Assembly (NCBI GenBank): GCA_016929195.1
Contig: JAFGJG010000044.1
Coordinates: forward strand, 1-48,883
Length of the DNA stretch: 48,883 nt
Direction of reading: 5' to 3'
Origin: Thermoleophilaceae bacterium
GTDB taxonomy: Bacteria; Actinomycetota; Thermoleophilia; Solirubrobacterales; Thermoleophilaceae
The notes under the pieces were generated by a model. That model was not told the DNA's origin and did no database searches. It saw only the letters and a program-made list of their open reading frames with translations. Each line of letters begins with the position of its first letter. The first letter of the stretch is position 1. Below are positions 27,990 to 42,759 of the stretch, one piece after another. The position numbers were made by a program, and so were the translations under genes.

Positions 27990-30009
27990 TGCCATAGCCC
28001 TCGGGGGCGCGCTGGCCGCCCTCGCCTTCGGAGCCGCCGGCGGGACCTCGCTCGGGCGCACCGCGACGACCGAGGTCCTGGCCGTGCTGGCGGCCGGCGC
28101 CATCGTCGGCCTCGCGGCGTTCCGCGGCCTGACGCGCGGCGCGGGCGGGACGGCGGTGGCGCTGTTCGCGCTCTTCGCCGGTCTCACCGCGCTGTCGGTC
28201 ACCTGGTCGATCGTGCCGGGAACGAGCTACGTCGAGGCGGGCCGGACGCTCACCTACCTGGCGATCTTCACCGCGGCTGTGGCCGCGGCCCGGCTGGCGC
28301 CGCGAGCCCCCGGGGTGGTGCTGGCGGGGATCGCCGCGGCGGCGGTCGCGGCGGTCGGGTACGCGCTGGCCTCACGGGTGTGGCCCGGCACGCTGGCCGA
28401 GAACGAGCTGTCGAACCGCATCGGCGCGCCGTTCCAGTACTGGAACGCCGTCGCAACCACGGCGGCGCTGGCGGTCCCCGCGCTTCTCTGGCTCGGCTCC
28501 CGGCGGACGGGCAGCGGGATCGGGCGCGCGCTCGCCTATCCCGCGATGGGCGTCTGCACCCTCGGCATGCTGCTCACGCAGTCGCGCGGCGCGGTCGCGG
28601 CGGCCGCCATCGCGGCGATCGCGTGGTTCGCCTTCGTGCCCCTGCGGCTGCGCAGCCTGCCGGTCCTGCTCGTGCCGGCCGCCGCGGCCTCCGCGCTCGG
28701 CGCCTGGGCGCTCTCGAAGGACGCCTTCTCGAAGACGCTTCAGCCGCTGTCGGCCCGGGAGAGCGTCGCCGGGGACTTCGGGCTTCTGCTGCTGATGATG
28801 CTCGTCCTGCTGCTGCTCGTGGGCGTCGCCGTGAGCATGGGGCTGGCGCGCGCGCCCGCGTCCATGGGCACGCGCCGGCGCATCGGAGTGGCCGCGGCCG
28901 TGCTGGCGGTCGCCGCGCCGCTCGCGGCCTTCACGTCGGCGGCCATGAGCGGCGGCGGCATCAGCGGGTCGATCTCCGACCGCGTGGACGAGCTCGTGAG
29001 CGAGACGGACACGGCGCCGGAGCAGGGCGCCGGCCGGCTGACGGCCGCCTCCTCCACGCGCGGGAAGTACTGGCGCGAGGCGGGCCGCGTGCTCGGCGAC
29101 CGGCCGGTTCTCGGGGTGGGCGCCGGAGCGTTCGAGGTGGCGCGGCTGCGCCACCGCACGGACGCCGCGAGCACCCGCCACGCCCACGGCTACGTGATGC
29201 AGACGCTCGCCGACCTCGGGATCGCCGGCCTCGTGCTGTCGCTTGCGCTGCTGGGCGCCTGGCTCGTGGCGGCGCTCCGCACCACCGGCCTGCACCCGCG
29301 CAGGCTGCCCTTCCAGAGCCGCGCGGGCCCGCTCGGGCGCCGCGACTGGGACGGCGAGCGGGTTGCCTTCGTGGCGCTCTTCCTGGTGGCCGTGACGTTC
29401 GGCCTCCAGTCCGCGATCGACTGGACGTGGTTCGTGCCCGGCCCGACGGCCATGGCGCTCGTGGCCGCCGGCTACGTCGCCGGCCGCGGCCCGGTGGCGG
29501 CCCTCGCCGCGCCCGGCGTTGGCCCCGTGGCCACCCGGCGCCCGCCGCTCGACGCGGCGCGCGTGGCCGCCACCGCGGGCGTCGCGCTGGCCGCGCTCCT
29601 CGTGGCCTGGGCGATCTGGCAGCCCGAGTCGTCGGCCAATTCCGTCGGCCGGGCGCTCGATCTCGCCGACCAGGGCCGCTACGAGGAGGCCTACGAGAAG
29701 ACGGAGGACGCGGCCGGCGCGGACCCGCTGTCCCCCGCTCCGCTGATGGCACGCGCGCAGGTGGAATCGCAGGCCGGGCTCGACCGGCAGGCCGCGCGGA
29801 CGCTCGAGCGGTCCGTCCTCGAGTTCCCCGGCGACCCCGACACGTGGACGGAGCTCGCCCGCTTCCAGCTGTTCACGCTCGACCGGCCGCGCCGGGCGCT
29901 CGAGACGCTGCGCGGCGCGCTGTATCTCGACCCGTACTCGCCGCTGGCGGGCGCGCTCTGGCTGCACGCCCGCTCGGCGGTGCGGGCCGCGGATCGCGAA
30001 CGCGGCTAG
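27961..30009 (+). CDS. O-antigen ligase/Wzy-like polymerase with C-terminal TPR region
   Basis: The protein is about 682 residues with 11-13 membrane helices. LLTQSRGAVAAAAIAAI (205-221) and the exported loop with GKYWREAGRVLGDRPVLGVG and HAHGYVMQTLADLGIAG (407-423) are the Wzy_C/O-antigen-ligase signature. Residues about 570-682 are TPR-like helices (RALDLADQGRYEEAYEKTED; ARTLERSVLEFPGDPDTWTE). It would polymerise or transfer undecaprenyl-linked glycan on the outer membrane face. GTG 27961 is preferred; TTG 27937 is possible. It ends at a CTAG shared with the convergent epimerase gene. Confidence 0.82.
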   Translation: MSASRASAASAIALGGALAALAFGAAGGTSLGRTATTEVLAVLAAGAIVGLAAFRGLTRGAGGTAVALFALFAGLTALSVTWSIVPGTSYVEAGRTLTYLAIFTAAVAAARLAPRAPGVVLAGIAAAAVAAVGYALASRVWPGTLAENELSNRIGAPFQYWNAVATTAALAVPALLWLGSRRTGSGIGRALAYPAMGVCTLGMLLTQSRGAVAAAAIAAIAWFAFVPLRLRSLPVLLVPAAAASALGAWALSKDAFSKTLQPLSARESVAGDFGLLLLMMLVLLLLVGVAVSMGLARAPASMGTRRRIGVAAAVLAVAAPLAAFTSAAMSGGGISGSISDRVDELVSETDTAPEQGAGRLTAASSTRGKYWREAGRVLGDRPVLGVGAGAFEVARLRHRTDAASTRHAHGYVMQTLADLGIAGLVLSLALLGAWLVAALRTTGLHPRRLPFQSRAGPLGRRDWDGERVAFVALFLVAVTFGLQSAIDWTWFVPGPTAMALVAAGYVAGRGPVAALAAPGVGPVATRRPPLDAARVAATAGVALAALLVAWAIWQPESSANSVGRALDLADQGRYEEAYEKTEDAAGADPLSPAPLMARAQVESQAGLDRQAARTLERSVLEFPGDPDTWTELARFQLFTLDRPRRALETLRGALYLDPYSPLAGALWLHARSAVRAADRERG

Positions 30010-30938
30010 CCGACGGCCGCGGCCGCGTGGGCGGCCTGAAGCGCGAGGCCGTCGGGCAGAGCGGTGACCGGCTCCCAGCCGAGCTCGACCCGGGCGCGCG
30101 TCAGGTCCGCCCCGGTGCTGCGCGGGTCGCGGCCGTCGGCCGGCAGCCGCTCCAGCTCCGGCGTCCGGCCCAGTTCGTGCGCCAACAGCGAGAACGCCTC
30201 GGCCAGCGTCGCCGGGGCGCCGCCGGCCACGTTGAAGGTGGCGCCGTCGCGGCCGCTCTCGAGGGCGAGCGCGGTCGCCTCGGCGGCGTCGCCGACGTAG
30301 GTGAAGTCGCGCACCTGACGACCGTCGCCGAGCAGCCGCATCGGCTCCCCGCCGAGCGCCGCGTCCACGAAGCGGGCGAAGGCCATGTCCGGCCGCTGGC
30401 GCGGCCCGTAGACGGTGAAGTAGCGGAGCACCACGAGCTCGATGCCGAGCGCCGCGGCCTCCACGCGCGCGAGCCGCTCGGCCGCGCGCTTCGAGCGGCC
30501 GTACTCCGACAGCGGCCGCAGCGGCGCGTGCTCGGGCACGCGCCCGTCGGTGCGCCCGTAGACGGACGACGACGACGCCAGCAGAACGCGCCGCACCCCG
30601 GCGCTGTGGGCCGCGCCGAGCACGGCCGCGGTGGTCTGCACGTTGCCCGCTGCGTAGACCTCTGTCGTCCCGCGCCTCACGCCCGGCCGGCCGGCCAGAT
30701 GACAGACGGCGTCGAGCCCGATCAGGGCGGGTGCGAGCCCGGTCTCGTCGAGCACGTTCAGCTCGACCAGCTCGAAGCCGGGGGCCGAGCGGAGCGCGGC
30801 CACGTTCGCCTCCTTCAGCTCGCGGCCGTAGAAGCGCGTGAACGCGTCGATGCCGACCACCTCGTGACCGCGCGCGAGCAGGCGCTCGCACACGTGCGAG
30901 CCGATGAAGCCGGCGGCTCCGGTAACTCCGATCCGCAT
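30006..30938 (-). CDS. NAD-dependent epimerase, UDP-glucuronate 4-epimerase-like
   Basis: This 310-residue extended SDR has GAAGFIGSHV at 7-16, ASSSSVYG and the catalytic YGRSK at 146-150, with YFTVYGPRQRPDMAF, a block typical of UDP-glucuronate 4-epimerases and related enzymes. It would interconvert UDP-GlcA and UDP-GalA or act on a similar sugar. ATG 30938 lies seven bases after TAGAAA, whose TAG is the stop codon of the methyltransferase gene upstream. Its own stop interlocks with the polymerase stop in a CTAG. It is the last gene of a five-gene minus-strand run. Confidence 0.82.
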   Translation of the reverse strand: MRIGVTGAAGFIGSHVCERLLARGHEVVGIDAFTRFYGRELKEANVAALRSAPGFELVELNVLDETGLAPALIGLDAVCHLAGRPGVRRGTTEVYAAGNVQTTAAVLGAAHSAGVRRVLLASSSSVYGRTDGRVPEHAPLRPLSEYGRSKRAAERLARVEAAALGIELVVLRYFTVYGPRQRPDMAFARFVDAALGGEPMRLLGDGRQVRDFTYVGDAAEATALALESGRDGATFNVAGGAPATLAEAFSLLAHELGRTPELERLPADGRDPRSTGADLTRARVELGWEPVTALPDGLALQAAHAAAAVG

Positions 30939-30945
30939 GGTCGGA

Positions 30946-30951
30946 TTTCTA
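30946..30951 (-). promoter_or_regulatory. -10-like TAGAAA-N7-ATG built on a stop codon
   Basis: The TAG stop of the methyltransferase gene begins TAGAAA, seven bases before ATG 30938. It differs from TANNNT only at the last base. Confidence 0.4.
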
Positions 30952-31530
30952 TCGGGTCGCGAGCGCCAGCAGCGTGCCTGCGCTGCGGCGCATGATGCGG
31001 ACGTCGAATCCCATCGCCTCGAGCAGGCCGCGCAGCGAACGGCGCGTGAGGAAGCGGAGATGCGGCGAGAGCGGGTCGAACGCCTGCTCGAAGCCGCGCG
31101 TGAGGATGGCGAGGCCGTCCGCGCGCCCGTGGGCGGGGGTGGTGATCGCGAGCGCGCCGCCCGGCCGGAGCACGCGGCGCGTCTCCGAGAGGAGCAGCTG
31201 GACGTCGCGCACGTGCTCGAGGACCTCGGCGCAGAGCACGAGATCGAAGCTCGAGTCCTCGAAGGGGAGCGGCGCGTCGGGCGTCAGCTCGGCCCGCTCG
31301 GCATGCGGCACCTGCCGTGCGGCACGCTCGAGCGCCACCGCGGACACGTCGGCCACGGTGAGCTCGCGTGCCCGGAGGAGGCCGGACACGAGCCCGTCGC
31401 CGCAGCCCAGGTCCAGCGCGCGATCGACGGGCTCGAGCGATCGGACGAAGCCGGCTCTCGGCTCCGGCGGACCGTGCGAGTGGCCCGGCGCGAGCTCCCA
31501 GAGCTCGTCGTCGTAGCGGCTGGCTACCAG
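30949..31530 (-). CDS. Class I SAM-dependent methyltransferase with no canonical start codon
   Basis: The homologous region SRYDDELWELAPG...DRALDLGCGDGLVSGLL...DLVLCAEVLEHVRD...LRPGGALAITTPAH is a complete type-11 methyltransferase of about 190 residues. No in-frame ATG, GTG or TTG exists between the end of the sugar transferase gene and motif I; the first is GTG 31389, which would remove the SAM-binding loop. A CTG at 31530, overlapping the stop of the preceding gene (CTGGTAG), gives the full domain, so translation may start at CTG by reinitiation. The substrate is unknown. Its stop codon is part of the promoter of the next gene. Confidence 0.7.
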   Translation of the reverse strand: MVASRYDDELWELAPGHSHGPPEPRAGFVRSLEPVDRALDLGCGDGLVSGLLRARELTVADVSAVALERAARQVPHAERAELTPDAPLPFEDSSFDLVLCAEVLEHVRDVQLLLSETRRVLRPGGALAITTPAHGRADGLAILTRGFEQAFDPLSPHLRFLTRRSLRGLLEAMGFDVRIMRRSAGTLLALATR

Positions 31531-33089
31531 GCGCCCTTCGCCCTGATGACCGCGGGCACGGTCTTCAGGAGGATCGAGAGGTCGAGGAAGACCGACCAGT
31601 GCTCGAGGTAGAGGAAGTCGAGCCGGACCAGCTCGTCGAAGTCGAGCTCCGATCGGCCGGAGACCTGCCAGAGGCCCGTCATGCCGGGCAGGACGAGGTA
31701 GCGCTTGCGGTGCCAGTCCTCGAGCCTCGCGTAGTCGCGCTGCGGCAGGGGCCGCGGGCCCACGAGCGACATCTCGCCGCGCAGGACGTTGAGGAGCTGC
31801 GGGAGCTCGTCGAGCGACCAGCGGCGCAGGAAACGGCCGACCGGGATCACGCGCGGGTCGGTGCGCATCTTGAAGATCGCGCCGCCCACCTCGTTGCTCG
31901 GCTCGAGCTCGTCCTGGAGGTCGTCGGCCCCCTCGACCATCGTGCGGAACTTCACGCAGGCGAAGGGCTTGCCCCCGATGCCGGGCCGGATCGACCGGTA
32001 CAGCACCGGCCCGCGCGAGGTGACCTTGATGACGATCGAGACCAGGAGCAGGAGCGGCGACAGCAGAAGCAGGAGCAGCGTGGCCCCCACCAGGTCGAAG
32101 GTCCGCTTGATCGCGAAGTCCACGCCCTCGAAGACCGGCGGCTTCAGCTCGAACAGGGGCAGCGACTGGCCGGGCACGAACTCGACCCGGTCCATGAGGA
32201 TCTCCATCGTCGACGGGGCCACGCGCACGCGCACGCCGTGCCTGTGACAACGATCGACCAGCTCCACGGCCTCGTCCTGCGGGAAGTCGGCGTCGGTGAT
32301 CAGGACCTCGTCCACGGCGTCGAAGTGGCGCTCCAGCTGCTCGAGCGAGCGGAAGTCGAGCAGGCCGTTGGCGTCGTGCCCGGGGGTGCGCGCCACGAAC
32401 CCGTAGGGCTCGATCGCCTTGCTGTCGCTCAGCGCGTCCGACACCGCGGCGATGTTCGCCGAGGAGCCCACGAGCACGGCCCGGCGGCGATAGCCGGCCG
32501 CGCGCAGGACCACTCCGCTGATGCGCTCGAACACCCAGCGCGCCGCCGAGACGTACACGAGCGCGAAGACCAGCGAGCCGTAGAAGATGTAGTACGAGTT
32601 GAACGAGTGGCCCTCGATCTCCGCGTAGATCAGGACCACGAGCACCACCTCGAAGAGCGCCGAGATGATCTTTGCGAGGCCGGGGCGCTGCGCCCGGTCG
32701 CGGTAGAGGCCCGAGCGCGCGAACAGCAGCACCATCACGAGGCAGGCGAGCGGCGCGTACTCCTTGGCCGTGCCCCAGGCGTGCTGGAGGGTGTCCGGGT
32801 TCTGGATCGCGGCCTTGAGCGCGAGCGCCGTCCAGATGGCGAAGACGAGGCACGCGATGTCCAGCGCCGCGAGGATCGCGATGCGGCTGAGCGTCCGGAT
32901 CGTGTCGAAGCGGAGGACGCTTCGGAGCAGGAGCGGCTTGGCCGCGCGCACGTCGCGGTCGGGGAGGGAGAGCGGCTGTACCTCCCTCAGTTCTTTTACT
33001 AGGCCGTTCGGCACTTCGATGGGGCGGTCTCCGGCGGATGTAAACCGCGACCGGGGCGAATGTAGCGGGGTGTCGGGTCGGTCGCTCAC
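31524..33089 (-). CDS. Polyprenyl glycosylphosphotransferase (WbaP/PssY-type priming enzyme)
   Basis: The 521-residue protein has four membrane helices (about 68-90, 112-126, 142-158, 166-182), a Rossmann-like CoA-binding middle domain, a reentrant helix at about 333-355 and a C-terminal bacterial sugar transferase domain with KFRTM (380-384), DELPQLLNVL...SLVGPRP (427-447) and GLWQVSGRS (472-480). It transfers a sugar-1-phosphate from a UDP-sugar to undecaprenyl phosphate and so begins the repeat unit. It is the only priming enzyme in the window. GTG 33089 overlaps the stop of the propeller gene upstream (GTGA), which ties the two together. Confidence 0.9.
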   Translation of the reverse strand: MSDRPDTPLHSPRSRFTSAGDRPIEVPNGLVKELREVQPLSLPDRDVRAAKPLLLRSVLRFDTIRTLSRIAILAALDIACLVFAIWTALALKAAIQNPDTLQHAWGTAKEYAPLACLVMVLLFARSGLYRDRAQRPGLAKIISALFEVVLVVLIYAEIEGHSFNSYYIFYGSLVFALVYVSAARWVFERISGVVLRAAGYRRRAVLVGSSANIAAVSDALSDSKAIEPYGFVARTPGHDANGLLDFRSLEQLERHFDAVDEVLITDADFPQDEAVELVDRCHRHGVRVRVAPSTMEILMDRVEFVPGQSLPLFELKPPVFEGVDFAIKRTFDLVGATLLLLLLSPLLLLVSIVIKVTSRGPVLYRSIRPGIGGKPFACVKFRTMVEGADDLQDELEPSNEVGGAIFKMRTDPRVIPVGRFLRRWSLDELPQLLNVLRGEMSLVGPRPLPQRDYARLEDWHRKRYLVLPGMTGLWQVSGRSELDFDELVRLDFLYLEHWSVFLDLSILLKTVPAVIRAKGAW

Positions 33090-35578
33090 AGGAGGCGCGA
33101 CAGCACCGGGAACACGTCGGCGATCACGTACGCGCGAACAGTCGTGGGAAGGATTGTGCCCGCCGGGACACGCAGGCGCACCTCATGCAGGTTCCCACGC
33201 GCGTCGGAGCGGGTACGAAGCGCCCGTCTGTAGTCCAGCGAGACGGGCGCGCCGGTGGCGGCATCGGTGAGCAGGATCGCCAGCGAGTGGCTGCGCGCGG
33301 GCAGCCGTGCGCCCCGCGCGAGCCGCAGCCGCGCGACCGCCTCGCCGGGCGCGGCCGGCGTCGGCCGCGTGAGCTCGAGGCTCGCCACGCCGACGCCCTG
33401 CGGGCGCTCGCCGGCCCGGCCGCGCCGGTCGTATCGCCGTGTCACGAACGTGCCGCTCGCGGGCAGCGTGAGGCTGTCGTTGCAGAGCCCCAGCGCGATG
33501 AAGGCCTGCCCGTACACGGGCACGTCGGGGCAGCTGACCTCCACGAACAGCCCGCCGCCTCCGCGCGAGCGGAGCCGCCGGTCGAGCTGCATGCGGAGGT
33601 CGAAGCGCCGCAGCGGCACGTCGCCGAAGCTGAAGGTCAGGTTCAGCCCGCGCTGGGACACCATCACGGCGTCGTCGCGGTAGCGGCCGGCGAGCGGGAA
33701 GGCGAACGCGCCGCGGCGGTCCGCCACGGGCGCCCCGTTCGGCCCGCGCTTCGTCGAGACCGCCCAGAGAAGCAGGGAGCCCTCGCCGTCCGCGTCCGGC
33801 TTCGAGACCGACAGGGCGCCCACGACCATGTCGTAGCTGTCGAAGCCGATCTGGTTGAGGCTCGGGATGATCGGCGGGAGCGGTACGGCCAGCCGGCTGA
33901 GCTCGAAGGCGGACACGCGGTTGCGCCCGGTGGCGAGCGGCGGGCCGCGGCGGAGCACCGGAGCGGTGCGGAAGCGGATCGCGCCGTCGACGGTCCCCCG
34001 GGCGCCGTCGGCCTCCCACGGGCCGGCCACCCGCACCGTGTAGGCAGTGTCGGGGCGGAGGAAGCCCTCCGGCACGACGTGCAGATACCCCCCGTCGCCG
34101 GACAGCTGCGTTGTGCTCGCGAACGGCGGGTCGGCGCTCACCGCGGGAGCGGCCAGGCCGGCCCTCAGCGTCCGGCCGCCGCGGCGCACGAGCAGGCGGG
34201 TCCCCAGCGCGGTGGCGGCGGGCACGCGCCCGCGCGGACCCGAGAGGCGGGTCGAGCCGCCCGGCGTGACGAACGCGATCGTGGTGAGACCGGGAGCGAA
34301 GGCCTGGCCGGGCCGGCGGTCGCAGCGCGGGTCGCGATGCCGGAGGCACCAGTCGTAGGGCACGTGGACGATCAGGCCGTGCTCGCCGCCGACGTAGATG
34401 CCGCGGCGGCCCAGCGCCGGCGAGCCGTTCACGTCGTTGCGGTCGCGCAGGACGGGGTCGCGCGGGGTCGTGTCGTACGACCAGCGCCGTCTGCCCGTCT
34501 CGGCGTCGAGCGCGTAGAGGCTCCCGTTGGACGAGCCGACGTAGAGGATCCGCCCCGGCCCCCGCGGCGCGCGGCCGAGGACCGGGGACGAGCGGACCGG
34601 CTCCCCGGTCTCGTAGCGCCAGCGGAGCCTGCCCGCGCGGTCGAGCGCGTACACGGACCCGTCCGTCGAGGCGAAGTAGACGAGCCGTGGGCCCAGCGCC
34701 GGGGAGGAGTACACGTGCTCGTCGGTCTGGAAGCGCCAGCGCACCTCGCCGTCGTCCGGGTCGAGCGCGTACAGGGCGCCGTCGAACGATCCGATGTAGA
34801 CGGTGCCGTCGCTGCCGAGGGCGGGCGACGACGCCACGAAGTGCCCGGCGCCCCGCTGCCACCTCAGCTTCCCGCGGGGCGTCACGGCGCGCACCGACAG
34901 GTCGAGCGAGCCGAAGTAGACGGTGCCGTCGTCGCCGATCGCGGCGTTCGACCAGACCGAGTTGCCGGCCGGGTGCACCCAGCGGAGCTTCCCACGCGGG
35001 GTGAGCGAGTACTCGGCGCCCCCCGTGTTGCCGGCGAACAGGTTCCCGCCGAAGCCCATCGTCACGTTGCCCTCCCACCAGTTCACGAGCTGGCCCTCGG
35101 CGGGCCTGCGGGTCGCGCGGAAGCGCCATAGCGTCCGGGCGGAGCGGCTGAGCGGGCGCGCGGCGCTGCGCAGGCGGTAGATGTGCTCGTCGCCCGACCC
35201 GAAGGTCACGGTCCCGCGGCCGAGCACTCCGGCGGAGTCGATGATCTCGCCGGTCTTGTAGCGCCAGCGGAGCCGGCCCCCGCGGCCGAGCACGTAGAAC
35301 CACGTGTCGGCCGACCCGGCGTAGACGGTCTCGTCCCGGCCGATCACGGGCGTGCTGAACACGCCCTTGCCGGTACGGAACCGCCACGGGCGGTCGCCGC
35401 GGTGGTAGCGCCCGCGGACCGGGCTGCTGCCGGTGTTGCGGCGGTCATGGCGCATCGAGGGCCACGGCGAGCCGGGCTCGGTCGGCACCGCGCGGCTCTT
35501 CCCGGGCGCGGCCACGGCGGCCCCGGCCGGCAATGCGAGGAGGGCTACGAGCGTGGTGGTGACGGCCGCCCTGCGCAC
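33086..35578 (-). CDS. Secreted PQQ-type beta-propeller protein
   Basis: This 830-residue protein has a signal peptide (1-23, ending AAVAAP). Residues 40-400 are PQQ/BamB-like propeller repeats, seen as recurring GTVYFGSLD, GTVYIGSFDGALYALD and YVGSSNGSLYALDAETG blades separated by RWRYKTG-type strands. Residues about 450-830 are a beta-rich region without clear family. It would sit outside the membrane, as a binding or scaffolding protein rather than an enzyme, since quinoprotein dehydrogenase residues are not evident. GTG 35578 follows TAGGCT-N6. The end overlaps the priming transferase gene (GTGA), and the gene lies 22 bases after the membrane regulator. Confidence 0.78.
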   Translation of the reverse strand: MRRAAVTTTLVALLALPAGAAVAAPGKSRAVPTEPGSPWPSMRHDRRNTGSSPVRGRYHRGDRPWRFRTGKGVFSTPVIGRDETVYAGSADTWFYVLGRGGRLRWRYKTGEIIDSAGVLGRGTVTFGSGDEHIYRLRSAARPLSRSARTLWRFRATRRPAEGQLVNWWEGNVTMGFGGNLFAGNTGGAEYSLTPRGKLRWVHPAGNSVWSNAAIGDDGTVYFGSLDLSVRAVTPRGKLRWQRGAGHFVASSPALGSDGTVYIGSFDGALYALDPDDGEVRWRFQTDEHVYSSPALGPRLVYFASTDGSVYALDRAGRLRWRYETGEPVRSSPVLGRAPRGPGRILYVGSSNGSLYALDAETGRRRWSYDTTPRDPVLRDRNDVNGSPALGRRGIYVGGEHGLIVHVPYDWCLRHRDPRCDRRPGQAFAPGLTTIAFVTPGGSTRLSGPRGRVPAATALGTRLLVRRGGRTLRAGLAAPAVSADPPFASTTQLSGDGGYLHVVPEGFLRPDTAYTVRVAGPWEADGARGTVDGAIRFRTAPVLRRGPPLATGRNRVSAFELSRLAVPLPPIIPSLNQIGFDSYDMVVGALSVSKPDADGEGSLLLWAVSTKRGPNGAPVADRRGAFAFPLAGRYRDDAVMVSQRGLNLTFSFGDVPLRRFDLRMQLDRRLRSRGGGGLFVEVSCPDVPVYGQAFIALGLCNDSLTLPASGTFVTRRYDRRGRAGERPQGVGVASLELTRPTPAAPGEAVARLRLARGARLPARSHSLAILLTDAATGAPVSLDYRRALRTRSDARGNLHEVRLRVPAGTILPTTVRAYVIADVFPVLSRLL

Positions 35579-35584
35579 CCGCCG

Positions 35585-35590
35585 AGCCTA
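35585..35590 (-). promoter_or_regulatory. Leaderless promoter TAGGCT-N6-GTG for the propeller/priming operon
   Basis: TAGGCT on the minus strand is followed by six bases and GTG 35578, inside the 22-base gap after the regulator gene. It would allow transcription independent of the regulator. Confidence 0.5.
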
Positions 35591-35600
35591 TCCGCGGCCG

Positions 35601-38600
35601 CTACCCCTTGTTCGAGCTGTCGGTCAGGCTCGCGGGAACCGTGAGGACGTCGTCGACGACGGCTCCCTCGAACCAGGGATAGCCGCCGGGGACCGGCGCC
35701 GCGCGGTCCGCCACCCGGTAGACCGCGACCGTCGCCGGCGCGATGTCTCCGCCGCGGTCGAAGCGGAACGTCCCGAGGAGGCCGTCGCGGACCCGGGCCG
35801 CCCTGAGGTTCTCGAGCACCGACTCGCGCGACCCGTCGGAGCGGGCGATGGCGCGCATCACGACCTCGGCGGCCTGTGCCGCGGCAAGCGCGAACTGGGC
35901 CGGATCATCGAGGGCGCCGAAGCCGCGGGCAAAGCTCTCGCCGGCCGGGCTCAGTTCGCGGGCGGCGGGCGGGACGTCGGCGGCCCCGATGTAGATGCCG
36001 CGGGCGGCCGGGCCGAGCATCTCGATCAGCTCGGGGACGGACGCGAAGGGCTCCATCAGCATGATCCGGAGCCGGTCGCTCCGAGCGCGGAGGGCCTTCA
36101 CCAGCCCCGCCCCGCCGTCCCAGGCGGTGCCCGCGACGAACACCGCCTGCGCTCCGGAGCGGGCCACGGCGTCGGCGAGCGCCGCGTAGCTCTCCGCGGC
36201 CGGATCGAACAGCTCCGGGCCGACGACGTCGAGGCCGAGCCGCTCGGCCGCCCTCCGGAACGGGTCGGCGTGCTCCGCCCGCCAGTCCGAGCGGGGCTCC
36301 TGGAGCACGTTCACGCGCTCGAGCCCGATGCGCCGCGCATGCAGGGCGAGCGCGGCGGCCTGGACGTCCTCGCGCGGCGCCACGCGCACGAAGTTCCTGA
36401 CGCCGGTCGGGTAGTACACGCCCGGCTCGCCCCTCTTCAGCGCAAGCGGGCCGCCGCGCGTCAGGCCGGACCCAGTGTTCGACGGGCTGATCATCCCGAG
36501 CGGCCCGCCGGGCGCGCGGTTCAGGATCGGGATCTCCACCTCGGCGCAGAACGACGAGTAGGTGCCGATCACCGCGACAAGCTCGGTCGCGTGCGCGTAC
36601 GCGTTGGCGTTGGCGGCGCACCTGCGGAACTCGAAGCCGCCGGTCTCGACCGTCGAGACGTCGCACGACTGGTAGCCCACCACGTGATCGCCCGCCCTGA
36701 ACCGGCGCCGCTCGAGCACGTAGCGGATGGCGCCCGCCAGCGCGCGCGGGTCGCCGCTGTTCGGCCCCTGGAGCGGGAAGTCCGACGCGATCAGGACGTC
36801 GGGCCGGGCGCCGCCCGAAGCGACCTCGCCGCACACGGATGCGCGCAGCGGTCCCTCGGTGGTCCGGCCCGCCACGCTCACCCACGCGCCGCCGGGGCCG
36901 GCGGCAAGCGCCTGCGGCGCGCCGATCGAAGTTCGCCTCGTGACGTCGTTGGTCCTCGGATCGATCCGCGAGACCGTCCCGTCGATGTAGTTGCCCGTCC
37001 ACACCGCCCCTCCGCCGGATGCCACCGCGGTCACGCCGGTGCCCACGTCGATCGTCCGGCTCACGGGATTGCGGCCGGGCTCGATCCGCCAGAGCAGGCC
37101 GTCATCGCGAGCGGTCGCCCACACGGAGCCATCGCCCACCGCCAAGCCCCAGAGGCCCTGTGTGCCCACCCGCACGGTCTGCCCGACACGGTTCGTGCGC
37201 GGGTCGATGCGGGTGACCGTGTCGCCGAAGCTCAGGAACCAGACCCCCTCGCGACCGGCCGCGAGGGTCCAGGCGGCTTCCCGGAGCTCGATCCGTGCCT
37301 CGATCTCGCCGGTATCCCGATCGATGCGCGAGATACTGCCGTCAGGGTTGATCGCCCAGACCGCGCCGGCGCCCGCGGCCACCCGTGGCAGGCCGGCGGT
37401 CGGGAGCACGCCCTTGCCGCCGCCGGGCAGCCGCGCGGTGGCGGTGACCCGCCCGGAGCGCGGGTCGAGGCGCGCCACGCCCACGAGCGAGTTCGTGTCG
37501 CCGCTGCCGCCGACGAGCCCGACCCAGACCGCCCCCTCGCCGGCCGCGATCTCCGCCGGTAGACCGCCGGTCTCGAACGTGCCGGTCAACTCGCCCGTAC
37601 GGGGATCGATGCGCGACACGGTCCGCTCGCCGCCGGTGTTGAGGACCCAGACGGCGCCCTCCCCGGCGGCCACGTTCCCGGGGACCGCCTCCGTGTCGGT
37701 GAACGAGGCGACGTCGCCGCTCGCCCTGTCGAGCGCGGCGATCCCGTCGCCGAGCGGATCGGAGCCGGACCCGTCGCCGCCGTCGATCGCGATGACGGCC
37801 GCGACGGCCGCGGCCAGCAGCACGGCACCTCCCGCGACGACGAGCCCGCCGCCGCGCCGCCGGCGCCCGACCAGCGCCGGCCCGGGCTTCGTGGGCGCAC
37901 CGAGCGCGGGATCCTGGCGCAGGATCGCGGTCTCGAGCTCGCGCAGCGCGGGCCCGGGCTCGAGGCCGCGCTCGTCGAGCAGCGCGCGGCGGCCGGCCTG
38001 GTAGGCATCGAGCGCCTCTGCCTGGCGGCCCGAGCGGTAGAGCGCGAGCATCAGCTGGGAGCGCATCCGCTCACGGAGCGGGTGCTCGCCCACGAGCCCG
38101 GTGAGCTCCGCCACGAGATCGGCGTGGCGGCCGAGCGCGAGGTCGGCGTCGATGCGCTCCTCCACGGTGGCCAGCCGAAGCTCCTCGAGACGGCCGATCT
38201 CCTCCTGTGCAAAGTCCTCGTAGGCGAACTCGGAGAGGGCCGGGCCGCGCCAGAGGCCGAGCGCCTCGCGCAGGCTCCGCGCCGCTCCGGCGGCGTCGCC
38301 CTCCGAAAGGCTCCGCCTGCCCTCCTCGAGCAGGTGCTCGAAGCGCTCCGAGTCGGTGCGCGAATCGCCCGGGACGAGCACGTAGGCCCGCCCGCGCGTC
38401 TCGACCACGCCCTCCCCGAGAGCCTTCCGGAGGCCGGACACGTAGACCTGAAGGCTCTTCGCCGCGGCCTGCGGCGGCTGGGCCCCCCACAACTCGTCCA
38501 CCAGCCGATCGCTCGGCACGACCTCGCCGCGGTGGAGCAGGAGGAGCGCGAGCACCGCGCGCTGCTTGGGCGCGCCGAGCTCGAGGCGCTCGTCGCCGCG

Positions 38601-38654
38601 CCAAGCCTCGAGCGGACCGAGAAGGCGAAACTCGAGGGCCTGGGGAGCCTTCAC
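35601..38654 (-). CDS. Membrane-spanning SARP/BTAD regulator with extracytoplasmic propeller and ligand-binding domain
   Basis: The 1017-residue protein is an unusual one-component sensor. Residues 8-95 are an OmpR-type winged helix (FRLLGPLEAWRGDERLELGA, then VPSDRLVDELWG and SLQVYVSGLRKAL), 98-245 the BTAD helical domain of SARP regulators, and 268-290 a single membrane helix preceded by RRRR (264-267), which puts the DNA-binding part inside. Outside follow seven repeats of the GEGAVWV...SRIDPRTG type (about 325-625), a virginiamycin-B-lyase-like propeller, and a type I periplasmic-binding-protein domain (about 640-1010, DVLIASDFPLQGP). It should couple ligand binding outside to promoter control. 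It is divergent from 38759 and heads the run to 30006. GTG 38654 follows TAAATT-N6. Confidence 0.85.
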   Translation of the reverse strand: MKAPQALEFRLLGPLEAWRGDERLELGAPKQRAVLALLLLHRGEVVPSDRLVDELWGAQPPQAAAKSLQVYVSGLRKALGEGVVETRGRAYVLVPGDSRTDSERFEHLLEEGRRSLSEGDAAGAARSLREALGLWRGPALSEFAYEDFAQEEIGRLEELRLATVEERIDADLALGRHADLVAELTGLVGEHPLRERMRSQLMLALYRSGRQAEALDAYQAGRRALLDERGLEPGPALRELETAILRQDPALGAPTKPGPALVGRRRRGGGLVVAGGAVLLAAAVAAVIAIDGGDGSGSDPLGDGIAALDRASGDVASFTDTEAVPGNVAAGEGAVWVLNTGGERTVSRIDPRTGELTGTFETGGLPAEIAAGEGAVWVGLVGGSGDTNSLVGVARLDPRSGRVTATARLPGGGKGVLPTAGLPRVAAGAGAVWAINPDGSISRIDRDTGEIEARIELREAAWTLAAGREGVWFLSFGDTVTRIDPRTNRVGQTVRVGTQGLWGLAVGDGSVWATARDDGLLWRIEPGRNPVSRTIDVGTGVTAVASGGGAVWTGNYIDGTVSRIDPRTNDVTRRTSIGAPQALAAGPGGAWVSVAGRTTEGPLRASVCGEVASGGARPDVLIASDFPLQGPNSGDPRALAGAIRYVLERRRFRAGDHVVGYQSCDVSTVETGGFEFRRCAANANAYAHATELVAVIGTYSSFCAEVEIPILNRAPGGPLGMISPSNTGSGLTRGGPLALKRGEPGVYYPTGVRNFVRVAPREDVQAAALALHARRIGLERVNVLQEPRSDWRAEHADPFRRAAERLGLDVVGPELFDPAAESYAALADAVARSGAQAVFVAGTAWDGGAGLVKALRARSDRLRIMLMEPFASVPELIEMLGPAARGIYIGAADVPPAARELSPAGESFARGFGALDDPAQFALAAAQAAEVVMRAIARSDGSRESVLENLRAARVRDGLLGTFRFDRGGDIAPATVAVYRVADRAAPVPGGYPWFEGAVVDDVLTVPASLTDSSNKG

Positions 38655-38660
38655 GAGGCG

Positions 38661-38666
38661 AATTTA
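38661..38666 (-). promoter_or_regulatory. Leaderless promoter TAAATT-N6-GTG for the membrane regulator
   Basis: TAAATT on the minus strand is followed by six bases and GTG 38654. It is the most AT-rich hexamer of the set, in the 104-base divergent region that is also the likeliest site for autoregulation. Confidence 0.5.
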
Positions 38667-38746
38667 CCGCCACTTAGGCGTTCTTTGCCGGTCGCGAACC
38701 AACCGCGCCCATGCTGCCCCGCAGATCGATCCCGATCCCCACCGAC

Positions 38747-38752
38747 AGGAGG
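38747..38752 (+). promoter_or_regulatory. Strong Shine-Dalgarno AGGAGG
   Basis: AGGAGG lies six bases before ATG 38759 and fixes that start. It is one of only two perfect ribosome-binding sites I see in the window, where most monocistronic genes have none. Confidence 0.75.
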
Positions 38753-38758
38753 CACGCA

Positions 38759-39142
38759 ATGCGCAAGACCAAGCTGACCACCGGACTGCTGATCGCAGCG
38801 GCCGCGCTCCCGGTCGCGGCCCAGGCAGCGACCCCGCCGTACCACACGGACCTGCGCTCGCCCGACGCCCGCGACGCCGCGGCCAATCCGCAGTACGTGA
38901 ACGAGGCGCGCCACTACACGGACCTGCGCTCGCCGGACGCTCGCGACGCCGCCCTGGCCTCCGCTCGGAACGAGCCCAACCGGGTGCCGCCCGTCGCACG
39001 AGTCGCGACCGCCTCGGACGGCTTCGACTGGGGCGACTCGGCGATCGGCGCCACGGCGATGCTCGGCCTGCTCGCCGTCGGCACGGGCGCCTTCGTGGTG
39101 CTGGGCGGCCAGCGTCATCGACGGACCGTCACGCCGAGCTAG
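38759..39142 (+). CDS. Small exported repeat protein with C-terminal membrane helix
   Basis: The 127-residue protein has a signal peptide (1-23, ending AAQAA), two copies of a YxTDLRSPDARDAA motif (residues 28-42 and 53-66, 24-residue period), a membrane helix at about 93-115 and a basic tail. I recall LRSPDARDAA-type motifs in small exported proteins of high-GC actinobacteria, but their function is unknown. The ATG is fixed by AGGAGG at 38747 and a strong hairpin follows the gene, so it is a single-gene unit. It lies directly opposite the membrane regulator gene and could be a target of it. Strong translation suggests an abundant envelope protein. Confidence 0.72.
   Translation: MRKTKLTTGLLIAAAALPVAAQAATPPYHTDLRSPDARDAAANPQYVNEARHYTDLRSPDARDAALASARNEPNRVPPVARVATASDGFDWGDSAIGATAMLGLLAVGTGAFVVLGGQRHRRTVTPS
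38844..38952 (+). repeat. Two 37-base direct repeats, 72-base period, inside the small repeat protein
   Basis: The copies at 38844-38880 and 38916-38952 differ at two bases only and encode the duplicated TDLRSPDARDAA motif. Such close DNA identity in coding sequence points to a recent duplication or gene conversion. Confidence 0.75.
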
Positions 39143-39160
39143 ACGCGACCGCAGGCGAGG

Positions 39161-39205
39161 AGCGCGGGGGACGCCGGCGACCAACAAGCCGGCGGCCCCC
39201 GCGCT
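39161..39205 (+). terminator. Long GC-rich hairpin after the small repeat-protein gene
   Basis: AGCGCGGGGG (39161-39170) pairs with CCCCCGCGCT (39196-39205), and an inner CGCCGGC pairs with GCCGGCG, giving about 17 bp with one mismatch and a 9-base loop. There is no T-run, but this is the strongest hairpin between genes in the window, placed between a stop codon and a new promoter. Confidence 0.6.
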
Positions 39206-39222
39206 CGTCTGCGGCGCGCCGA

Positions 39223-39228
39223 TAGCCT
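39223..39228 (+). promoter_or_regulatory. Leaderless promoter TAGCCT-N7-GTG for the GH94-like gene
   Basis: TAGCCT is followed by exactly seven bases and GTG 39236, just downstream of the strong hairpin. Confidence 0.55.
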
Positions 39229-39235
39229 GCCGCCC

Positions 39236-41875
39236 GTGATCGGGCTTGCCCGATGGAGGCTCGCGGCCGGCGCGCTCGCGCTCGCCGCTCTGGGCGTGCC
39301 GAGCGCCCTCGCCGCCGCCCCCGCGCCGCTCTCGGGCGACCGGTCGCCGGCGGACGTGGACTCGAGGTTCGGCAGCGGGGCGTTCGGCCGCTGGACCGTG
39401 GACCGCCTAGGCCTGCCGGGGTTTCGCTACGTAGTGGACCAGGAGACGTTCCGGCCCGCGCGGCAGCCGGAGCTCGCCGGGGGCACCGAGGCCCAGCACC
39501 AGCTGGGCAACGACAGCATCGTGGCGGCCGCCTTCAACCACGGGTACACCCAGCTCTGGAGCCAGGCAAGGCTGGCGCAGTGGGCCAACCGGTGGGACCC
39601 GGCGGGCGGCCACTACGGGGGCGGCTTCGGATACCTGAACGTGGACGGGCGCGTGCTCAGCACGCTCTACCTCGACCGCCCGCGCGGGGGAAGGACCGAG
39701 CGGCTGTTCGGGACCGGCTACTTCGCGCACCGGCTGCGCGCCGCCGGGCTCGACGTGAGCGAGCGGGTGTACGCCCCGTTCGGCGACGACCCGCTGCTCC
39801 TCCACGACGTGACGATCCGCAACCGCGCGGGGGCGCCGAGGCGGGTGTCGTGGTTCGAGTACTGGGACGTGAACCCGTGGCTCGAGGCGGCCGACCGGAG
39901 CAGGGCGACGGGAGCGGCCGCGTGGCGCCCGGCCTCGCGCACGCTCGCCGTGCGGCAGGCCTCCGGCGACCTCGGCGACCGGCGGCCGCTCAGCATCTTC
40001 GCCGCGGCGCTGCGCGGCCCCGTGGCCGGCCGCGAGACCTCGGCGGCAAGGTTCTTCGGCACCGGCACGCGAGCGGCGCCGGCGGCCGTCGCGGCCGACC
40101 GCCTGGGCGGAGGCGCCGCACCACCGGGCCCGAAGCTGTTCGCGTTCCGGGCGCCGCTCCGGCTCCGCCCCGGCGCCTCGGTCACGCTGCGCTACGCCTA
40201 CGGCATGGCGCACGCCCGGCGCGTGGACGGGCTCGTGCGCAGGTACCGGCGCGAGCGCGATCCGTACGCACGCAGCCAGCGCCGCTGGGCCGCGTGGCTC
40301 CCGCGGGCGGACTTCGGGCGGCGCAACGCCTGGGTCGCGCGCGAGCTCCAGTGGGACTCGTACCTGCTGAGGTCGGCGGCGGTCTACGAGGAGGAGTGCG
40401 GCCACCACACGATCACGCAGGGCGGCTACTACCAGTACAGCTCCGGCGCCAACCTCGGCTCGCGGAGCTGGCTGCACTACCTCCTCCCCATGGTCTACGC
40501 CGAGCCCCGGCTGGCGCGCGAGATCCTGCGCTTCACGGTGAGCGTCCAGTCGAAGGCACGCGGCGACCTCCCCTACGGGCTCAGCTCACTGTGCGAGCAC
40601 TTCGATGCGCTCGGCACGTCCAGCGACCTCGACTTCTGGCTCCTTCTGGCCGCCGCCGAGTACGGGCTCGGAGCCCGCGACGTGCGCTTCTTCGGCGAGC
40701 CGCACCCGTTCGCCGACTCGCGCGAGCGGGCGAGCGTCTGGGAGCACGTGAAGATCGCCTACCGCCACCAGGAGTCGCTGCGCGGGCCGCACGGCGGCTA
40801 CCTGTCCGGCACCAACGGCGATTGGTCGGATTTCGCGACGGAGTTCCTGAGCATGTCCGAGACCACGCTCGTCGCCGCCCAGCTCGCCTACGCATACCCG
40901 CGGCTCGCCGACCTGGCGGAGCTGCGCGGCGATCGCGCGTTCGCGGCGCAGCTCCGCCGCCGGGCGCGCGAGCTGCGACGTGTGGTCGCCCGCGAGTGGG
41001 TCGGCCGCGGCTGGTACTCGCGCGGCTACGACGGCGGGTCGCAGATCGGCACCGGCGCGATCTTCGGAGAGCCTCAGCCGTGGGCGCTGCTGGCCGGCGT
41101 GCCGGGTCCGCGCCGGTCGCGCACGCTCGTGGCGAACATCCGCCGCTTCCTCACCGGCGTGGGCGCGCCCGCCGGTCTCGGAGGGCCGGCGCGGATCGGG
41201 TCGGCGATGTCGCCGGCGGAGCGCGACCCGCTCGTGACCGAGGCCCCCACCAGCCCGGGGCTGAAGTCGGACGGCGCGTCCCAGTGGCCGGGAGGGGTCT
41301 GGTTCGACATCAACGGCTGGCTGACCTGGGCGCTCGCCGACCTCGACGGGGTGGTCCCCGGCGCGGCCCGCCACGCCTGGGACGAGTACACGCGCAACAC
41401 GCTCGCGGCGCACGCGAACGCCTTCCCCCGGCACTGGGACGGCACGATCTCGGTCGACGACGCGTGCAACGCGTTCTACGCGCGGTCCCCCGCCCGCTGC
41501 GGGATAGCCCTCTACGACGACTACCAGGGCCAGATCACCGAGCAGCCCACCTGGATGCTGATGAACGCGGTGAACCTCGCCGGCGTCCGGGCCACGCGGA
41601 CCGGCTTCGAGGTCGACCCGCACCTGCGCGGGCGGTTCTCGCTCCGCCTGAGGCGCGTGGGCGTGGCCCGCGGGGCCGGCGCACTCCGCGGCTACCTGCG
41701 CGTGGAGCGCCGCGAGCGGCTGCGGCTCAGGGTGCGGGTGCCGGCCGGCGCCCGCGGGGTGACCGCCTGGGCCGGCGGACGAGCGGTGGCCCACCGCCGC
41801 GCGGGGCGATCCGCGGTGTTCACGCTGCCGGCGCGCCCCGGGCGGGCCGCCGACTGGGCCCTCACGTGGCGCTGA
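39236..41875 (+). CDS. Secreted GH94-like (cellobiose/chitobiose phosphorylase superfamily) enzyme
   Basis: The 879-residue protein has a signal peptide (1-27), an N-terminal beta-sandwich region (about 60-330, with EYWDVNPW and YRYAYGMAHA-like strands) and an (alpha/alpha)6 barrel (about 360-790). GTNGDWSDFATEFLSMSE (525-542) corresponds to the GDWND segment that carries the general acid in GH94, and QITEQPTWMLMNAV lies near the end of the barrel. Known GH94 enzymes are phosphorolytic and mostly cytoplasmic; an exported member may instead be a hydrolase or transglycosidase acting on a beta-glucan-like polymer. GTG 39236 is supported by TAGCCT-N7. The stop overlaps a possible ATG of the next gene (TGATG). 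Confidence 0.75.
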   Translation: MIGLARWRLAAGALALAALGVPSALAAAPAPLSGDRSPADVDSRFGSGAFGRWTVDRLGLPGFRYVVDQETFRPARQPELAGGTEAQHQLGNDSIVAAAFNHGYTQLWSQARLAQWANRWDPAGGHYGGGFGYLNVDGRVLSTLYLDRPRGGRTERLFGTGYFAHRLRAAGLDVSERVYAPFGDDPLLLHDVTIRNRAGAPRRVSWFEYWDVNPWLEAADRSRATGAAAWRPASRTLAVRQASGDLGDRRPLSIFAAALRGPVAGRETSAARFFGTGTRAAPAAVAADRLGGGAAPPGPKLFAFRAPLRLRPGASVTLRYAYGMAHARRVDGLVRRYRRERDPYARSQRRWAAWLPRADFGRRNAWVARELQWDSYLLRSAAVYEEECGHHTITQGGYYQYSSGANLGSRSWLHYLLPMVYAEPRLAREILRFTVSVQSKARGDLPYGLSSLCEHFDALGTSSDLDFWLLLAAAEYGLGARDVRFFGEPHPFADSRERASVWEHVKIAYRHQESLRGPHGGYLSGTNGDWSDFATEFLSMSETTLVAAQLAYAYPRLADLAELRGDRAFAAQLRRRARELRRVVAREWVGRGWYSRGYDGGSQIGTGAIFGEPQPWALLAGVPGPRRSRTLVANIRRFLTGVGAPAGLGGPARIGSAMSPAERDPLVTEAPTSPGLKSDGASQWPGGVWFDINGWLTWALADLDGVVPGAARHAWDEYTRNTLAAHANAFPRHWDGTISVDDACNAFYARSPARCGIALYDDYQGQITEQPTWMLMNAVNLAGVRATRTGFEVDPHLRGRFSLRLRRVGVARGAGALRGYLRVERRERLRLRVRVPAGARGVTAWAGGRAVAHRRAGRSAVFTLPARPGRAADWALTWR

Positions 41876-41892
41876 TGGGTAAGACTCTGGCC

Positions 41893-42759
41893 ATGCGCAG
41901 GCTCCTGCTCCTCCTCGCCGGCGCCGCCTTGCTGGCCGGCTGCACCCTCCCCGCCCCCCCGGGCGCCGCCCCGCTTCGCTACCGCGACGTCGTCTTCAGC
42001 TCGGCCACCAAGACCGCGGACGTTCAGTACGGGACCGCGCCGGACCTCCAGGGCAACCAGGTGGCGCTCCGGTTCGACGTCTACCGGCCGGCCGGCGACA
42101 CCGTGGCCCGCCGCCCGGCGATCATCTGGGTGCACGGCGGGGGCTTCAGCGGCGGCAACAAGGGCGACGGCACCGACTGGGCGTCCGCCTTCGCCCGTCG
42201 CGGCTACGTGGCGGTCTCGCTCGGCTACCGGCTGCTCGCGACGGGCCCGTGCGGCGGCACGGGGCCCGTGCCCGAGTACTGCTACACGGCGGCGGAGGCT
42301 GCCCAGCACGACGCCCAGGCGGCGGTGCGCTACCTGCGCCGAAACGCGGACACGCTCGGCGTGGACCCGGAGCGGATCGCGATGGCCGGCGAGTCGGCCG
42401 GGGCCGTGACCTCCCTGCTCGTCGGGTGGCGCCGCGACGACCCGGGCACGAGCGGCAACCCGGGCTACCCGTCCGACATTCGCGCCGCCGTCTCGGTCGC
42501 CGGCGGCCTGCCGGTCAACGACTACATCGGCCCGGGCGACAGCCCGGCCTTCTTCTTCCACGGGGACGCGGACACGACCGTGCCGTTCTCCTGGGCGACG
42601 TCCAACGTGAACGCGATGGCGCAGGACCACCTGGTGGTCGGCATCCATCCGTACAGCGGAGCGGGCCACAACCTCTTCAACTCGTATCGCAACGAGATCC
42701 ACCAGCAGAGCTCGTACTTTCTCTACTTCATGATGGATCTCGAGCACGCCTCGCGCTGA
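41893..42759 (+). CDS. Lipoprotein alpha/beta-hydrolase (carboxylesterase-like)
   Basis: This 288-residue protein has a lipoprotein signal (MRRLLLLLAGAALLAGC, lipidated Cys17), the oxyanion motif HGGGFSGG at 81-88, the nucleophile elbow GESAG (Ser168), an Asp in HGDADTTVP and a His in GAGHNL (259). It is an esterase of the BD-FAE/hormone-sensitive-lipase-like group, expected on the outer membrane surface and suited to removing acyl groups from polysaccharide. An earlier in-frame ATG at 41875 overlaps the stop of the GH94-like gene; ATG 41893 gives a classic MRR start and lies seven bases after TAAGAC. Together with the GH94-like gene it looks like a glycan-processing pair. Confidence 0.78.
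   Translation: MRRLLLLLAGAALLAGCTLPAPPGAAPLRYRDVVFSSATKTADVQYGTAPDLQGNQVALRFDVYRPAGDTVARRPAIIWVHGGGFSGGNKGDGTDWASAFARRGYVAVSLGYRLLATGPCGGTGPVPEYCYTAAEAAQHDAQAAVRYLRRNADTLGVDPERIAMAGESAGAVTSLLVGWRRDDPGTSGNPGYPSDIRAAVSVAGGLPVNDYIGPGDSPAFFFHGDADTTVPFSWATSNVNAMAQDHLVVGIHPYSGAGHNLFNSYRNEIHQQSSYFLYFMMDLEHASR

Follow-up and report, generated by a model that had tools for sequence, protein, structure and literature searches.

SARPs are familiar as soluble proteins that activate antibiotic clusters. Members of this family, including AfsR, PimR, ActII-ORF4, and EmbR, share a head that consists of an N-terminal OmpR-type winged helix followed by a BTAD domain, and their operators are direct-repeat heptamers with an 11-bp period. 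The known large SARPs carry additional soluble parts of the NB-ARC/TPR, AAA/LuxR, or FHA type. AfsR binds DNA as a side-by-side dimer (PMC10936776). The heptamers bound by SARPs are separated by 4-bp spacers; PimR, which has the consensus CGGCAAG, also provides a precedent for a spacer of 3 nt (PMC3367932). The word "membrane" is absent from the text of a 2024 SARP review.

ToxR-like transmembrane regulators, such as CadC and TcpP, have been reviewed (PMC5936718) and surveyed (PMC10269533). In these proteins, a cytoplasmic N-terminal OmpR-type winged helix is connected by one membrane helix to a C-terminal sensor on the outside. The main text of the 2023 survey does not mention SARP/BTAD, propellers, or Actinobacteria (PMC10269533). 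Receptor Ser/Thr kinases also place a binding-protein or propeller sensor on a signaling protein, but their head is a kinase and not a transcription factor. Kinases with Glu/Gln or ANF-type domains occur in Streptomyces and Nostoc, and AfsK has PQQ repeats (PMC1262709). In the literature consulted, largely the main texts of freely accessible papers, regulators of the ToxR kind and binding-protein kinases were described, and a SARP with the build reported below was not found.

Architecture and predicted topology of the regulator

The window, that is, the whole stretch of 48,883 nucleotides that was analyzed from a Thermoleophilaceae genome, encodes a regulator that joins these elements in one chain. 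Its features are as follows.

35601..38654 (-), regulator of 1017 aa with a SARP head, a membrane helix, a propeller of seven blades, and a LivJ-like binding domain (Pfam, AlphaFold2, Foldseek, single-frame relatives)
38373..38636 (-), OmpR-type winged helix, residues 7-94 (Trans_reg_C; AfsR structures 8k60/8hvr)
37920..38357 (-), BTAD, residues 100-245 (Pfam, 6.3e-48)
37785..37841 (-), one transmembrane helix at residues 272-290, predicted N-in/C-out (positive-inside rule; KD 2.69; counterparts in homologues)
36870..37745 (-), seven-bladed propeller, residues 304-595 (DUF6923/DUF5074 matches; 28 modeled strands)
35625..36839 (-), type I (LivJ-like) binding domain, residues 606-1010, with all four cysteines (Pfam, AlphaFold2, Foldseek)

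The frame runs uninterrupted from 38654 to 35601 on the minus strand over 1017 aa. An in-frame stop lies four codons 5' of the GTG at 38654, which fixes this GTG as the start; it is the sole canonical start near the conserved beginning. No Shine-Dalgarno-like sequence is evident 5' of the GTG, and a -10-like TAAATT is positioned 6 nt before it. Together, these features suggest that the regulator transcript is leaderless. Is the frame really one gene? Relatives in four genomes (G266, G299, G075, and G215) and at locus L141 are single frames, indicating that the regulator is one gene; a pair of genes with an internal start is ruled out by several such uninterrupted full-length relatives. The AlphaFold2 model, built from 22 alignment rows, had a mean pLDDT of 86.5, and values <50 were confined to the linker/membrane stretch 258-298, two short loops, and the C-terminus. 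Thus, the proposal of the initial annotation that a single 1017-aa protein carries a SARP head, a propeller, and a binding-protein domain was confirmed by Pfam, AlphaFold2, Foldseek, and single-frame relatives. The domain matches that it anticipated (Trans_reg_C, BTAD, propeller-type, and Peripla_BP_6) were all found by Pfam, and the structure prediction gave a 28-strand propeller and a type I binding-protein fold.

The head (residues 1-250) is AfsR-like, with an OmpR-type winged helix at the N-terminus and a BTAD behind it, the order seen in SARPs. Trans_reg_C matched at residues 28-92 (1.2e-10, Pfam), and the match to the AfsR SARP domain extended across residues 6-253 (E about 1e-52). A Foldseek search of solved structures returned AfsR with a TM-score of 0.90 by target, and also EmbR. 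The positions matching W74, P79, R94, and K95 of AfsR are conserved in the head. T88 and R92 of AfsR, which make base contacts (PMC10936776), are V70 and G74 in the regulator, in keeping with the different heptamer sequence at this locus.

The only strong hydrophobic segment in the regulator is 272-290 (KD 2.69), flanked by RRRR before and DGGDG after. A membrane helix is thus predicted where one had been placed (268-290), and a comparable hydrophobic segment follows the head in every examined SARP-propeller homologue long enough to include the region. The cysteines (608, 664, 679, and 703) all lie in the outer domain and none in the inside part. Three standalone relatives lack both Cys679 and Cys703, a pattern that fits a disulfide pair outside the cytoplasm. 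The predicted topology and the architecture support a ToxR/CadC-like layout. In other words, a cytoplasmic DNA-binding head, one TM helix, and an outside sensor are predicted to reside in a single chain. Unlike ToxR-like regulators, this chain has a BTAD in its head, a propeller and a binding protein as its sensor, and a host in the Actinomycetota. Unlike the known large SARPs, it has a membrane helix and an outside receptor in place of soluble parts.

How would a signal reach the head? One proposal is regulated proteolysis: in response to an outside signal, the chain would be cut within or close to the membrane helix, and a soluble SARP head would be freed. The long low-confidence linker 258-298 between head and propeller would suit such a mechanism, as would the finding that the SARP domain of AfsR is active alone (PMC10936776). 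However, cyclase and kinase heads on the same kind of sensor favor a dimerization switch within the membrane, and release by cleavage appears improbable.

On the outer side, residues 304-595 form 28 strands in the AlphaFold2 model, that is, seven four-stranded blades, with propeller-type Pfam matches at residues 389-573. Residues 606-1010 adopt a type I binding-protein fold whose Foldseek matches are Leu/Ile/Val-binding proteins, and Peripla_BP_6 matched at residues 753-982 (1.2e-17, Pfam). The domain therefore belongs by fold and family with HAAT-type LivJ/LivK (3td9, 4mlc, 2liv, and 4n0q), and it is about 38-42% identical to standalone binding proteins of the class. Three standalone relatives (L054, L059, and L060) adjoin ABC-transporter genes, as read from translations, and the LivJ-like genes of the regulator's own genome are accompanied by ABC genes on contig C50. 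HAAT binding proteins are secreted or lipoproteins co-encoded with a permease and an ATPase. In contrast, the regulator domain has no lipoprotein signal and is fused behind a TM helix, and no permease or ATPase gene was found among the examined neighbors, which are genes for polysaccharide synthesis and for exported proteins. For these reasons the regulator is not filed as a transporter component. A separate observation concerns 6-phosphofructokinase-like genes (RIGILTGGGDVPGLN), which lie near LivJ-like binding-protein genes at five loci (L054, L055, L056, L060, and L062); this neighborhood recurs in several Thermoleophilia genomes, including on contig C50.

In LivJ, Ser/Thr loops hold the ligand carboxylate. 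These loops align with TYSSFC (698-703) and SPSNT (723-727) of the regulator, and positions around the presumed pocket (S701, P724, and N726) are conserved. The acidic residue that LivJ uses for the ligand amino group aligns with E868, not D, and the pocket Y of LivJ aligns with W791. These two replacements indicate that ligand specificity may have moved. From such alignments, an amino acid or a similar compound is at best a reasonable guess for the ligand.

The heptamer array and its neighboring genes

Two features lie upstream of the regulator.

38662..38700 (-), putative SARP operator, four heptamers: GGTTCGC 38700-38694, GGCAAAG 38689-38683, GCCTAAG 38679-38673, GGTAAAT 38668-38662
38759..39142 (+), divergent gene for a 127-aa exported protein with a signal peptide, a pair of DLRSPDARDAA repeats, and a C-terminal part made up of GFDWGDSAIGA, a TM, and an RRHRR tail; proposed target

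The array sits between the regulator and the divergent gene, with its heptamers oriented towards the regulator and the last one, GGTAAAT, overlapping the -10-like TAAATT. By sequence, it conforms to the 11-bp-period direct repeats of SARPs, with one spacer of 3 rather than 4 bp, and its heptamer GGCAAAG resembles the PimR consensus. The operator model arose from visual inspection before it was put to the test, and the test loci are in part related to one another. Without a motif assumption, repeated heptamers in 19 regulator upstream regions were most in excess at lag 11 (25 versus 6.5, z 4.9), and lag 22 gave z 3.1. A heptamer matrix was built from five training loci, the window not among them, and then used to score fourteen further loci. 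The fourteen test loci scored above 171 control upstreams (Mann-Whitney p 2e-5), a conservative test because the controls still contained the regulators' own upstreams, and 6 of the 14 fell within the top 4.1% of controls. The window array scored 17.4 (p<=0.003 versus shuffles), a value reached by 1.8% of controls. No convincing heptamer array was present at L037, L043, L050, or L034. Clear examples elsewhere are GGTTGCC-aaag-TGCTAAC-caac-GGTAAAT upstream of L124 and GGTTGCT-cggg-CGCTAAT-cgcc-GGTAAAT upstream of L125. Likewise, L141 and L046 share GGCTACA/AGCTACA, CCCTAAG/CGCTAAG, and GGCTAAT/GACTAAC in exact 11-bp steps just 5' of the start. An excess of repeated heptamers at lag 32 (z 4.2) in the 19 upstream regions is unexplained.

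Genome-wide, the strict pattern GSYWAARN4GSYWAAR had no match, and a looser RSYWAAD pair had three in 3.46 Mb, one of them at the window array. Because pattern sites are so few, a regulon beyond the local site is not claimed. Sigma-70 consensus promoters and terminators across 30000-39300 were at chance level, and RNA structure at the gene junction gave no signal (z 0.39).

The 127-aa exported protein had no Pfam match; similar tails occur at four loci (L037, L042, L049, and L169). No clear -10 element was identified for its gene. Within 200 bp, a divergent ORF that has a ribosome site and a signal-like N-terminus accompanies 8 of 19 regulators versus 1 of 129 other genes of the same loci (Fisher p 1.3e-7, with criteria fixed after the pattern was noticed and loci partly related). 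Besides the window's own, homologues of the protein were found three times in 199 class genomes (G041, G087, and G195), and two of the three adjoin sensors of the regulator family. The G041 homologue is divergent from a SARP-propeller-SBP5 regulator, and the G087 homologue follows a frame with a propeller and a lipoprotein-like PBP6. The G195 homologue, a weak match, has no such sensor within 13.5 kb. Furthermore, L141 and L046 have two homologous exported genes in common on the divergent side. In G087, GGTAAAG-gcc-GGTAAAG precedes the exported gene on the same relative strand as in the window. A search of the regulator's own genome for the GFDWxD coding pattern, at one codon spelling, found none. 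The recurrence of a divergent exported gene with SARP-type repeats in between makes this gene the better-supported first target. Beyond it, a 1168-aa frame (39253-42759) matches carboxylesterases in its last 230 residues; the frame is probably composite, and its first part seems to shadow a gene that lies in a different frame (39236-41875).

How might these parts work together? The favored reading, to which we assign a probability of roughly two in three, is that of a ligand-driven, dimerizing transmembrane one-component regulator whose paired heads bind the heptamers and switch on the divergent exported gene. The outer domain would be closed by a small molecule, probably an amino acid or a similar amino-carboxylate, and closure would alter the pairing of two subunits. 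The paired heads would then bind the tandem heptamers at 38662-38700 and bring RNA polymerase to the exported-protein gene. Head binding may also restrain the regulator's own operon, because the last heptamer overlaps the -10-like element. The propeller would probably act as a rigid spacer or contact protein or the cell wall.

The initial annotation had linked the regulator to polysaccharide synthesis through the genes downstream of it.

33086..35578 (-), exported PQQ/BamB-like propeller protein (PQQ_2 and Beta-prop_ACSF4, Pfam), 22 nt downstream of the regulator
31524..33089 (-), polyprenyl glycosylphosphotransferase for exopolysaccharide priming (Bac_transf 1.1e-63, TIGR03025), with a 4-nt overlap with the PQQ/BamB-like gene
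30006..30938 (-), NAD-dependent sugar epimerase/dehydratase (PF01370, 3.2e-54)

The co-directional run itself is real: the regulator is followed by the PQQ propeller gene, the glycosylphosphotransferase gene, a methyltransferase-like gap, and the epimerase gene, and the regulator and the PQQ/BamB-like gene are probably co-transcribed. The link to polysaccharide is weak, however, as tblastn found none of these genes beside the relatives in G266, G299, and G215, and weak epimerase matches, about 30% identical, appeared near G075 and G279 only. Does the regulator mainly control this operon, tying an outside ligand to polysaccharide synthesis? The close spacing of the genes (the 22-nt gap and the 4-nt overlap) would fit, and so would the orientation of the heptamers towards the regulator and their overlap with its -10-like element. 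Against this stand the missing downstream genes in the three relatives and the G087 repeat pair, which precedes an exported gene and has no regulator promoter on its opposite side. Primary control of the operon thus seems improbable, and the polysaccharide genes could respond through operon autoregulation. The region 5000-33089 contains a polysaccharide cluster with flippase-like, O-antigen-ligase-like, glycosyltransferase, UDP-sugar dehydrogenase, aminotransferase, and oxidoreductase genes.

Relatives and the exchange of heads

Full-length single-frame relatives are 49% (G266), 47% (G299), 46% (G075), and 38% (G215) identical to the regulator; L141 is a further one. G266 and G299 are both of the other genomes examined from the same genus. 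G075 has a second copy interrupted by a contig end, and a copy in G153 is apparently split across two contigs. Among the genomes sampled, the family was found only in Thermoleophilia-type Actinomycetota, with hosts in Thermoleophilaceae, Thermoleophilia, and unplaced Actinomycetota. A scan of 396 phylum-wide genomes at E<=1e-50 returned standalone binding proteins and no fusion beyond the window's own genome, a count that is a lower bound because two candidates were scored per genome. A contig scan with the single protein as query found no relative, and relatives were recovered with an alignment as query. Where the chain is naturally split (L158, L120, and L169), the split falls between propeller and binding protein and never at the membrane helix. 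L158, for example, has a SARP-TM-propeller and a lipoprotein PBP6 as adjoining genes. At L120 (394-3147), a partial kinase with a propeller is followed by a PBP6 in the same reading frame with one TAG between; the gene may be split, the fusion may have decayed, or the TAG may be an error of sequencing. L145 resembles a fusion at first sight but is more probably a binding protein that stands alone, preceded by a non-coding open stretch.

The sensor occurs in several forms. The class contains SARP-TM-propeller proteins with an SBP_bac_5 tail, and at two loci (L044 and L116) SARP-propeller forms end after the propeller. These forms bear on an explanation with the same topology in which the signal is not a small ligand, and the propeller and binding domain dock an envelope protein or polymer, possibly the neighboring exported protein feeding back. 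The forms that lack a binding domain suggest that the propeller alone may suffice for sensing, and the repeated pairing with exported proteins and the W791 in the LivJ pocket point in the same direction. However, the type I fold is complete with conserved presumed-pocket positions, and the presence of the unrelated Peripla_BP_6 and SBP_bac_5 at the same place suggests small-molecule sensing. Docking appears possible but unlikely, and a small ligand is preferred.

The head is exchanged as well. The propeller lies behind class III cyclase domains at L119, L115, and L117 and behind a Ser/Thr kinase at L122. The complete propeller and PBP6 half lies behind class III cyclase domains at three loci (L131, L137, and L139/L041); the Pfam cyclase match of L131 was under cut-off and L041 ends at a contig end, and both were assigned by BLAST to the family cyclases. 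In trees of the sensor half, monophyly was rejected for the SARP rows (p-AU 2.4e-54) and likewise for the cyclase rows (p-AU 1.1e-10). A single origin of either head is thus rejected, indicating that heads were exchanged. The regulator itself clusters with the cyclase proteins L131 and L137 (97/98). In the binding-domain tree, fused domains are apart from most standalone ones (96/100); one standalone row lies inside the fused group, and three rows labeled as fused lie outside it, of which L145 is probably mislabeled.

SARP heads, class III cyclases, and receptor-type Ser/Thr kinases work as dimers. The simplest reading would therefore be that the outer half controls pairing. We give about even chances to a broader model in which Thermoleophilia possess a plug-in family of single-helix receptors, with one outside sensor lineage (a propeller, in some members joined by a recruited uptake-type binding protein) and interchangeable SARP, class III cyclase, or Ser/Thr kinase heads, all probably paired by ligand. 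In this model, the SARP form would directly switch on a dedicated neighboring exported protein via its own heptamer array, without a phosphorelay or second messenger. A membrane-spanning SARP would show that the SARP head is used for direct outside sensing and would give this group of soil Actinomycetota, most of which are uncultured, a further type of receptor. Exchange of heads on one sensor lineage would also allow the demands of signaling through a single helix to be tested in natural proteins, and one chain of binding protein, helix, and DNA-binding head with a predicted operator would be a ready scaffold for a ligand-responsive biosensor.

Two further arrangements were observed. At L157 (1740-3641), a cyclase-like N-terminus is followed by a TM segment and a PBP6, without a propeller, and the binding domain falls outside the main fused clade. 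At L154 (1236-7173), roughly 2 kb separates a SARP gene (527 aa) from two PBP6-type frames, and in the tree one of these frames clusters with the binding domain of the kinase-type sensor.
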